DNA from: a virus
Reading direction: 5' to 3' (one strand)
DNA length: 22,334 bases
Virus record (IMG/VR): IMGVR_UViG_3300031974_000328
Coordinates: 1 to 22,334 of that record
Below the pieces are notes generated by a model. It searched no databases. It saw only the letters and a list, made by a program, of their open reading frames with translations, and was not told the origin of the DNA. Shown one piece after another: positions 4,696-7,403 of this stretch. The first letter of the stretch is position 1. The number at the start of each line of letters is the position of its first letter. Made by a program: the position numbers and the translations under genes.

Positions 4696-4722
4696 AAAAA
4701 AGGGGGATGGTTAGTCCCCCTT
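4696..4722 (-). terminator. Rho-independent terminator after the DUF3127 gene
   Basis: On the minus strand AAGGGGGA, a 7-nt loop and TCCCCCTT form a perfect 8-bp stem (4722-4700). The stem is followed by six or more T (plus-strand A run 4696-4701). It lies directly between the stop of the DUF3127 gene and the start of the ATPase, so it would attenuate transcription into the ATPase/sigma operon. Confidence 0.85.
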
Positions 4723-5932: not shown

Positions 5933-5968
5933 AAAAAAAAAGAGGAGCAGCTATAAAAACCACTCCCC
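5933..5968 (-). terminator. Rho-independent terminator after NinG
   Basis: The minus strand reads GGGGAG, a 15-nt loop (further wobble pairing possible) and CTCCTC, a 6-bp stem with one G-U pair. It is followed by nine T (plus-strand A run 5933-5941). It ends the transcript arriving from the lysis and NinG genes, just ahead of the next promoter. Confidence 0.8.
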
Positions 5969-6033
5969 TAATTACAAACAAAGACAGAATTAAGACTCTA
6001 TAAATATACAAGGTTGGTTAGGTCATTCCAAGC

Positions 6034-6462
6034 CTATTTTAGTTTATTTAACTCCTTTTGATAGTATTCTATCATTTCATTTAATTCGTATGTAGAGAAC
6101 TTTACGATCTCACGGCTTTTTTCCAGAAGCATATCAGAAGTCCCCTCTCCGTAAGTTTTATCTATATACTTAGCATATAAGAACTGCTGACCTTGACCCG
6201 CTACATTACACCCAAAGCATTGAGGAGCGCAGTTCATTTCATCCCATCGTGTAGAATAATGCTTACGAGACATAAAGTGTCCGTTCTGAATTTTCTTTAT
6301 CTCATACTTCCTGCCACAAGTAACACAGGTGCAAAATCCATTCTTTGCATTCTTATAGCGTATATAAAGCGAAAATACTTGATCTAATCTTTGTACTACC
6401 TTAGATCGTGAAGGTTTCTTAGGAGCAGGCTTTTTACTCCTATTGGGCTTTCTTCTTATCAT
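6034..6462 (-). CDS. ninG: NinG/Rap-like recombination nuclease
   Basis: A 142-residue protein that fits the lambda NinG (Rap) family, whose lambda member is a structure-specific endonuclease acting in Red-type recombination. It has a basic Lys/Arg/Pro-rich N-terminus (residues 1-21), a helix, and then the zinc-binding nuclease core. Cys44, Cys46 and Cys49 lie in CTCVTC; the GHFMSRKHYSTRW segment carries His62 and His68; Cys78, Cys82 and Cys85 lie in NCAPQCFGC. A helical tail follows. Spacing of the Cys pairs and the N-G-H-F-x-S-R motif are diagnostic. It overlaps the upstream 80-residue gene by 23 nt, and the terminator at 5933-5968 follows. Confidence 0.9.
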   Translation of the reverse strand: MIRRKPNRSKKPAPKKPSRSKVVQRLDQVFSLYIRYKNAKNGFCTCVTCGRKYEIKKIQNGHFMSRKHYSTRWDEMNCAPQCFGCNVAGQGQQFLYAKYIDKTYGEGTSDMLLEKSREIVKFSTYELNEMIEYYQKELNKLK

Positions 6463-6682
6463 CCTGAGTTCTTAAACAAGCAGAACCTAACCAGAAGTCG
6501 ATATCCTGTACTGCTCGGTAAATAATGCGACTGTTCTTTTTAGTATTCTCTTTCTCAGTCTTTGTAGAATCCGAACCTAAGTTCGTGTACATCTTACAAT
6601 CTATTCTAAATAACTCATCTACCTTTTCTCTATCACTAAGTTTACTCTTTACTACTTGGTCAATCTGTTCTCTTAGTGTCAT
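6440..6682 (-). CDS. Hypothetical protein upstream of NinG (80 aa)
   Basis: An 80-residue, mostly helical and highly charged protein (about a quarter Lys/Arg, with a poly-Lys-like tail). It has an N-terminal amphipathic helix (LREQIDQVVKSKLSDREKVDELF) and a second helix with IIYRAVQDIDFWL. Its start overlaps, as ATGA, the end of an open frame in the region to the right. It overlaps NinG by 23 nt, so the two are likely co-translated. Family not recognised. Confidence 0.6.
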   Translation of the reverse strand: MTLREQIDQVVKSKLSDREKVDELFRIDCKMYTNLGSDSTKTEKENTKKNSRIIYRAVQDIDFWLGSACLRTQDDKKKAQ

Positions 6683-6840
6683 AGGTATATTAAGATTAGA
6701 ATTATGCTTTTATAGTTTGTTGGTTCACAAATGGGTATAGGTTGCCCTACTGTACCATACCCATAAATTATGCTTCCACAGATGTCGGACACATAACAGG
6801 TGTGTATCTTTAATAGGTTAAATACACTCGCTAATTCCAC
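6679..6840 (-). CDS. Possible small ORF (53 aa, start uncertain) within a structured region
   Basis: An uninterrupted minus-strand frame runs from 6915 down to a TGA at 6679 that overlaps the next ATG as ATGA, the junction type used by real genes here. There is no ATG in it. The first usable start is GTG at 6840 (VELASVFNLLKIH...), giving 53 residues with three Cys and a hydrophobic end (SIILILIYL). The frame upstream of the GTG also looks protein-like (LNEGLYFIGEVE), so the true start may be unusual or reached by frameshift from the ATG at 6950. The same bases form strong hairpins, so coding is not certain. Confidence 0.35.
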   Translation of the reverse strand: MELASVFNLLKIHTCYVSDICGSIIYGYGTVGQPIPICEPTNYKSIILILIYL

Positions 6841-6960
6841 TTCTCCTATGAAGTACAGTCCCTCGTTTAGCTTACGGTTGAGGTGGTGCTTTGACTGCTC
6901 CCCATTCTTGCACCTTTATTCTTGTAGCCGAACCGAGTTGTTAGACGCATAAGCTACAAG
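6690..6960 (-). other. Hairpin-rich region, candidate structured RNA
   Basis: This is the longest stretch without a confident gene (6683-6971). On the minus strand it holds a chain of inverted repeats: an 8-bp stem 6953-6960 with 6921-6928; 5 bp 6910-6914 with 6885-6889; a tight hairpin 6850-6854 with 6839-6843 (6-nt loop); 6 bp 6822-6827 with 6802-6807; and 8 bp plus 3 bp with one bulge, 6757-6764 with 6731-6738. A 10-bp direct repeat (6700-6709 and 6766-6775) flanks the last hairpin. A -7 box lies at its head. Base composition is more GC-rich than flanking genes. No tRNA, tmRNA or known riboswitch core was recognised. Confidence 0.4.
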
Positions 6961-6961
6961 C

Positions 6962-6969
6962 CAAATATA
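6962..6969 (-). promoter_or_regulatory. Consensus -7 promoter box at head of the structured region
   Basis: The minus strand carries TATATTTG (6969-6962), a perfect TAnnTTTG, immediately after the holin stop codon. There is no TTG at the expected -33 distance (ATG is found instead), so strength is unclear and an activator or alternative sigma factor may be needed. It could start a transcript covering the hairpin-rich region, the 80-residue gene and NinG. Confidence 0.4.
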
Positions 6970-6971
6970 TA

Positions 6972-7403
6972 CTATTTTTGATTATCTTTCATAGAAGTAC
7001 CAAAATAATATCCAAAGATACTAAGTGATACCCCCTCTACGATACCGATCAGATGATAGAATAACTCTTTATTTGTTTCTGGAATATCTAACATTAGAAT
7101 TGCCCAGATAATCACTCCAAATGCACCTAAGCCTACTAATCCTGTGATATTAAATAACCAATCATTCTTACCTGCCTTAGCTATCTCTACTTCTCTATTG
7201 CGTGCAGAATCTCTATCAGCTACCTCAGCTTTATAAGCCTCTATAAGCGCATTGTGTGCATTTTCTTTCTCTTCGGGTGTCAAAGTATCATCGTTATCTA
7301 TTACGCTCTTTAAAACACCTAATACACCGCCCTCAGGTAATAACCCACTTGCTTTACTTAGCAGCTTACCTACTTTCGTTTCTTTAAAAGGTTTCTTACT
7401 CAT
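6972..7403 (-). CDS. Holin (3TM holin family-like)
   Basis: A 143-residue protein consistent with the phage 3TM-type holin family. A soluble helical N-terminal region (1-80) has a typical segment of acidic/amide helices (LTPEEKENAHNALIEAYKAEVADRDSARNREV). It is followed by two strong membrane helices at about 85-106 and 115-135 and a short charged tail (SMKDNQK). Holins form the inner-membrane lesions that release or activate the endolysin at lysis. Its ATG overlaps the TGA of the M15 endolysin gene as ATGA, the classic holin-endolysin pairing, although here the endolysin is upstream. Confidence 0.8.
   Translation of the reverse strand: MSKKPFKETKVGKLLSKASGLLPEGGVLGVLKSVIDNDDTLTPEEKENAHNALIEAYKAEVADRDSARNREVEIAKAGKNDWLFNITGLVGLGAFGVIIWAILMLDIPETNKELFYHLIGIVEGVSLSIFGYYFGTSMKDNQK

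Follow-up and report, generated by a model that had tools for sequence, protein, structure and literature searches.

A covariation-supported, pseudoknotted RNA between the lysis genes and ninG of an uncultured Bacteroidetes phage

What occupies the 289-nt gap between the lysis genes and the next genes of an uncultured phage? The window, the whole stretch of DNA analysed, is the IMG/VR virus record IMGVR_UViG_3300031974_000328 (22,334 nt). Nearly all of its genes lie on the minus strand, in the order structural genes, lysis pair, the gap (6683-6971), the small gene g80, the gene for NinG, a terminator and replication genes. A first-pass annotation had suggested that the minus strand of the gap may encode a structured RNA not yet described, and its homologues support this. 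Judged by the pattern of sequence change, about 263 nt at approximately 6702-6965 on the minus strand are almost certainly selected as functional RNA. The gap had also been called the only sizeable gene-free stretch, which is slightly too strong, as 1323-1564 (242 nt) is likewise without a listed open reading frame.

The portal protein of the window and a 685-aa protein are 40% and 30% identical, respectively, to their counterparts in Nonlabens phages P12024S/L. Because of this resemblance the window is assigned to an uncultured phage of Bacteroidetes, which by its protein sequences belongs in all likelihood with the Flavobacteriia; the carriers of the RNA are marine-type phages. The lysis pair consists of a peptidase M15 endolysin (7858-7400, minus strand) and, 3' of it, a small protein (6972-7403, minus strand) described as holin-like from its position and apparent hydrophobic stretches. 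The latter has no Pfam family, its PHROGs matches are solely of unknown function, and its stop codon lies about 10 nt ahead of the first helix of the RNA. The next gene after the RNA, g80 (6440-6682, minus strand), encodes an 80-aa protein with a predicted structure of four helices (pLDDT 91), for which a structure search gave no informative match and no known family. With relatives encoded in 498 IMG/VR stretches, it is a common small phage protein without an assigned function. It is followed by a DNA junction endonuclease of the NinG/Rap family (6034-6462, minus strand; Pfam NinG, 8e-13). About 70 nt past ninG a strong intrinsic terminator (5941-5969, minus strand; a 12-pair stem and a T-run) closes the RNA-g80-ninG stretch, and it is found at the same place in many relatives. 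A second intrinsic terminator (4700-4722, minus strand) stands after the gene for a single-strand binding protein. ARAGORN detected no tRNA and no tmRNA in the window.

Relatives were found in IMG/VR through the neighbouring genes, and from each the sequence separating g80 from the holin-like gene was excised. Most relatives in which g80 is at least 58% identical contain an alignable stretch of about 263 nt, and 15 distinct phage sequences make up alignment A1, with a mean column identity of 91%. The conserved extent is 6702-6965 on the minus strand (model R1, 263 positions; cmsearch 335 bits). At the DNA level the RNA copies are 85-98% identical to that of the window, the corresponding values being 62-82% for the upstream gene region (a range that includes phage L099, where unrelated genes are compared), 69-95% for g80 and 70-79% for ninG. 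Motif searches tolerant of helix variation yielded 18-22 IMG/VR contigs, and all searches pooled place the RNA in about two dozen records, one copy each. It was not found in a DNA search of the catalogued phages of INPHARED, nor in Nonlabens phage P12024S, the nearest isolate examined. One 23-base motif had no match in the bacterial species genomes (genome_contigs), and model R1 had none in 395 Bacteroidia genomes, a sample without a positive control. A scan with R1 of whole contigs, and of phages whose holin-like or g80 genes are related, scored no better than chance outside the known copies; a weak match in L041 (11 bits) was rejected, as its helices fail to pair properly. As far as searched, the RNA thus appears narrow in distribution and confined to one phage group. 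In columns 165-268 of A1, L022 and L026 are mosaics in which a 5' half of one sequence type is joined to a 3' half of the second type, a pattern suggestive of recombination within the RNA.

Eleven helical segments were derived by inspecting compensatory changes (all coordinates below are on the minus strand). The five stems listed by the first-pass annotation were all found where it had placed them and correspond to P1, P2, P5, P6 and P8; compensatory changes occur in the first four, and P8 is nearly invariant, hence neither proved nor disproved. The fold goes beyond these stems by P3, the P4 and P7 hairpins, a pseudoknot between loop 4 and a junction, and a kissing contact of loops 5 and 6. 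P1 (6953-6960 with 6921-6928) shows double changes in three of its eight pairs. P2 (GGUGC/GCACC; 6910-6914 with 6885-6889) is paired in 100% of cells, with a change from GC to AU in L040 and one G-U. P3 (6893-6898 with 6855-6860) is likewise 100% paired, with three double-change pairs, and is the most telling helix, being found as GCAGUC/GACUGU, GCAGAC/GUCUGU, AUAUAC/GUAUAU and GUACAC/GUGUAC. Its 5' arm (GCAGUC) lies within the hairpin loop of P2 and its 3' arm past P4, which makes an H-type pseudoknot of P2 and P3. The P4 hairpin (CCUC...GAGG; 6861-6883) has an invariant stem, which makes it a candidate pairing, and a nearly invariant loop, AACCGNAAGCUAAAC. GCUAA of this loop pairs with UUAGC/U (6867-6871 with 6830-6834); the change here is one-sided, C to U in three sequences (UUAGU) with G-U retained, and there is no double change. 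The P5 hairpin (ACUUC-AUAGGA-GAAGU; 6839-6854) has two double-change pairs (UA/AU/CG and CG/UG/GC/UA). AUAGG of loop 5 kisses CCUAU of loop 6 (6845-6849 with 6813-6817) and is paired in 100% of cells, U-A being replaced by C-G in L023 and L040 (ACAGG/CCUGU). Both belong to one subclade, so that this may be a single event; the kissing contact is supported by covariation and would be either intra- or intermolecular. P6 (GUGUAUUU...AAAGAUACAC; 6802-6827), the hairpin that carries loop 6, has 8 bp including a G-U, and its pair 140/163 occurs as UA, CG, AU and UG among the 15 sequences. Every sequence of A1 pairs in P2, P3, P4, the loop 4-junction helix, P5, the loop 5-loop 6 contact and P6. The P7 hairpin (UUAUG...CAUAA; 6768-6796) pairs in nearly all sequences after realignment fitted to the structure, with a single UA-to-GU change as independent support. 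P8 (GGGUAU...AGG-GCAA-CCU-AUACCC; 6731-6764) is predicted in single folds, and a conserved 3' tail (6702-6730) carries the second copy of AAGCAUAA. The 10-bp direct repeat AAGCATAATT described as flanking P8 is present at 6766-6775 and 6700-6709. All 15 homologues have two copies of its core, AAGCATA, and the bases that follow also look alike in some lineages; it is conceivable that UUAUG of P7 pairs with one copy or the other, as a switch. Two further pairings, of GGUUC in the P1 loop with GAACC in the tail and of UUAUGC with the AAGCAUAA repeat, were rejected since they are lost when one partner changes. The fold as a whole comprises at least eight helices, with the H-type pseudoknot P2/P3, the loop-junction pseudoknot of L4 and the kissing loops L5-L6.

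In A1, 97.3% of pair cells are standard and 11 pairs carry changes in both partners. On every measure the observed value exceeded that of all 500 shuffles, and pairing fell to 29-46% when the 3' partners were displaced by 1-3 columns. Because shuffles ignore the tree, a tree-based null was added, in which the inferred substitutions of each branch were replayed at random variable sites (300 alignments). Helices of at least 4 bp contain 12 fully paired covarying column pairs, where the null alignments averaged 0.41 and never exceeded 3 (n = 300). A few of the 12 fit competing helices (e.g. 13-68, 55-111, 111-128) and most fit the proposed fold. The compensatory change sought in homologues was therefore found, the stems being conserved through double changes. 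Folding energy was the one proposed check that spoke only weakly for the RNA: the window sequence is only modestly better than dinucleotide shuffles (-70.4 vs -63.6 ± 4.9 kcal/mol, z -1.37), with z values of -1.2 to -2.3 among the 15 homologues. The difference is modest because a nested model cannot see pseudoknots. Support for the RNA comes from covariation, and on energy alone the case is marginal.

In P1-P6 and the tertiary pairs, 32 cells are G-U and 2 are A-C. Since G-U far outnumbers A-C, the minus strand is the RNA; function of the plus strand would predict the reverse. This one-strand signature, together with the covariation of the pseudoknots and kissing loop, makes it very improbable that the inverted repeats act in DNA, as an origin, packaging or recombination site, even though the segment adjoins replication genes and the gene of a Holliday-junction nuclease and a direct repeat flanks P8. 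A small gene is the least credible reading of all and can practically be dismissed. The window does contain a 53-aa open reading frame (6679-6840, minus strand), the coding alternative listed earlier, which was rejected because the homologues conserve no frame: all of them have stops in all six frames, and their lengths of 261-265 nt, not in steps of three, break any frame.

That no known RNA class was recognised from the letters agrees with Rfam 15, which gave no match at the gathering threshold in the window and none at E ≤ 5 in the region. In the open literature, a scope that leaves subscription journals and most preprints aside, no account of an RNA of this kind next to ninG was found. The RNA represents a new, narrowly distributed family of structured phage RNA. 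Both the HDV ribozyme and the P3-P7-P8 part of group I introns have the topology of a pseudoknot whose loop contains a hairpin. P2/P3/P4 shares this topology and the unpaired stretches AGAAUGGG and AACCGNAAGCUAAAC are invariant, two features in favour of a self-cleaving or self-splicing RNA that would divide the lysis message from the one downstream. Such a ribozyme is nevertheless improbable: Rfam family models recognised neither a group I intron nor a known self-cleaving ribozyme core (no ribozyme or intron match at E ≤ 5), the intergenic place follows no splice-site logic, and the joining segments are unlike those of HDV or group I cores.

The RNA keeps constant company on its 3' side. In every record that includes the 3' flank, g80 follows on the same strand, its start codon 15-41 nt from the RNA, and the RNA was never seen there without it. 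L099 has a completely different lysis cassette upstream, yet the RNA, g80 and ninG stay together, with TTATATTTGGCTTG retained before P1. There is no terminator between the RNA and g80, and one stands shortly after ninG in the window and in many relatives. Because the constant partner is the downstream g80-ninG and the terminator comes after ninG with none after the RNA, the favoured reading, tentatively held at somewhat less than an even chance, is that of a cis-acting leader or intercistronic control element of the g80-ninG unit. It fits this reading that elsewhere in the group the corresponding boundary carries a hairpin leader of another kind. The RNA would then act as an untranslated leader or intercistronic element of a unit ending at 5941-5969. 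P1-P6 would form a compact 5' core whose binding partner may be a protein, a small molecule or ion, or else the ribosome or the transcribing polymerase. The 3' part, made up of P7, P8 and the tail with its duplicated AAGCAUAA, would relay the state of the core to the translation or stability of g80-ninG. Against a cis-acting leader, L007 and L053 have the holin-like gene, g80 and ninG with other sequence in place of the RNA (g80 of L053 is 90% identical). More distant g80 genes number in the hundreds, and a copy was recognised with none of those searched. The RNA is thus dispensable for g80. Its distance from the start codon varies, the conserved part holds no expression platform (no terminator/antiterminator and no helix sequestering the start codon), and unpaired bases are as strongly conserved as in trans-acting or catalytic RNA. 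At the place of the RNA in L053 (160-354) and in L007 there is a 41-codon frame, conserved at the protein level, which overlaps or abuts the g80 start.

Because an expression platform is lacking, the spacing is variable and L007 and L053 are without the RNA, action in trans is nearly as likely: a phage noncoding RNA with its own -7 box, processed free, that would act on host or phage targets late in infection, for example in regulation, counter-defence or an RNA-protein particle, beside the lysis genes. The absence of a terminator at the 3' end of the RNA makes a leader as possible as a free RNA. The RNA is mostly better conserved than its neighbours and, being replaceable by other sequence, is dispensable like an accessory element. 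A candidate -7 promoter box, TATATTTG, lies directly before P1 (6962-6969, minus strand), as the first-pass annotation had noted, and a box of this kind is retained when the upstream gene is exchanged. The box itself is real, and its role as a promoter is weakly supported. It is perfect in 5 of the 15 homologues, including L099 with its different upstream gene, and degenerate in the other ten, and the window contains no excess of the TANNTTTG consensus (20 sites against 23.7 expected). Its survival of the upstream gene exchange in L099 makes a promoter plausible. Action in trans has against it, besides the missing terminator and the imperfect boxes, the fixed place of the RNA upstream of g80 and the result of a search for antisense targets, which found no complementarity of at least 12 nt elsewhere in the 22-kb window. 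The bolder idea of a new RNA class with a tertiary architecture of its own (two pseudoknots and a kissing loop in about 260 nt), acting in trans as a machine of RNA or an assembly of RNA alone that is produced at lysis, and carried as optional cargo of the lysis/replication boundary, is doubtful.

RNAs of the put/EAR type of HK022 are structured antitermination RNAs ahead of genes with internal terminators. The genes that follow the new RNA contain two conserved intrinsic terminators, and the position of the RNA ahead of them would suit processive antitermination past 5941-5969 and 4700-4722. This is nevertheless unlikely, to much the same degree as a ribozyme: many relatives have the terminators at equivalent positions whether or not they carry the RNA, and the RNA-less L007 and L053 retain both, so that they show no need for it. 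Put/EAR elements are also much shorter.

At the lysis/replication boundary of L003, L004, L018, L019, L027 and L030-L033, which are without the RNA, a different short leader was observed upstream of a gene beginning MTKEEELDREGL/MSKEEELDREGL or similar. It often consists of a TATATTTG-like box and then a hairpin GGGGAGG...CCTCCCC just before the start codon. The stem seems to covary (GGGGG/CCCCC in L027, GGGGAGT/ACTCCCC in L033), and in six of the nine phages there was no Rfam match.

The cis-acting leader favoured here and its alternatives can be tested directly, as natural RNA-positive and RNA-negative phages exist within one group. Few phage RNAs are this rich in tertiary contacts, and for several of them, GOLLD and ROOL included, no function is known. 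The RNA is small enough for crystallography or cryo-EM scaffolding, and its base-pair map is backed by covariation. The intergenic gaps of uncultured Bacteroidetes phages thus harbour RNA families absent from Rfam.

Among known systems, the prohead RNA (pRNA) of phi29 is a phage-encoded structural RNA of 174 nt with loop-loop contacts that belongs to the phi29-type packaging ATPase; the new RNA does not match it, has different helices and shows no link to packaging. By none of the tests made is it a member of manA, wcaG, GOLLD or ROOL. The manA (RF01745) and wcaG (RF01761) RNAs are pseudoknotted domains of marine cyanophages and possible 5' leaders (PMC2864571). They differ in preceding metabolic genes where the new RNA precedes g80 and ninG, and there is no match in sequence or model; alike are the pseudoknotted fold in a marine phage and the possible placement as a leader. 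GOLLD and ROOL are ornate phage RNAs rich in pseudoknots and kissing loops, GOLLD being induced at lysis (PMC12286853). Both are much larger and often lie near tRNA islands, whereas the new RNA is a compact element without an Rfam match, but it shares with them its phage origin and its wealth of loop-loop contacts.
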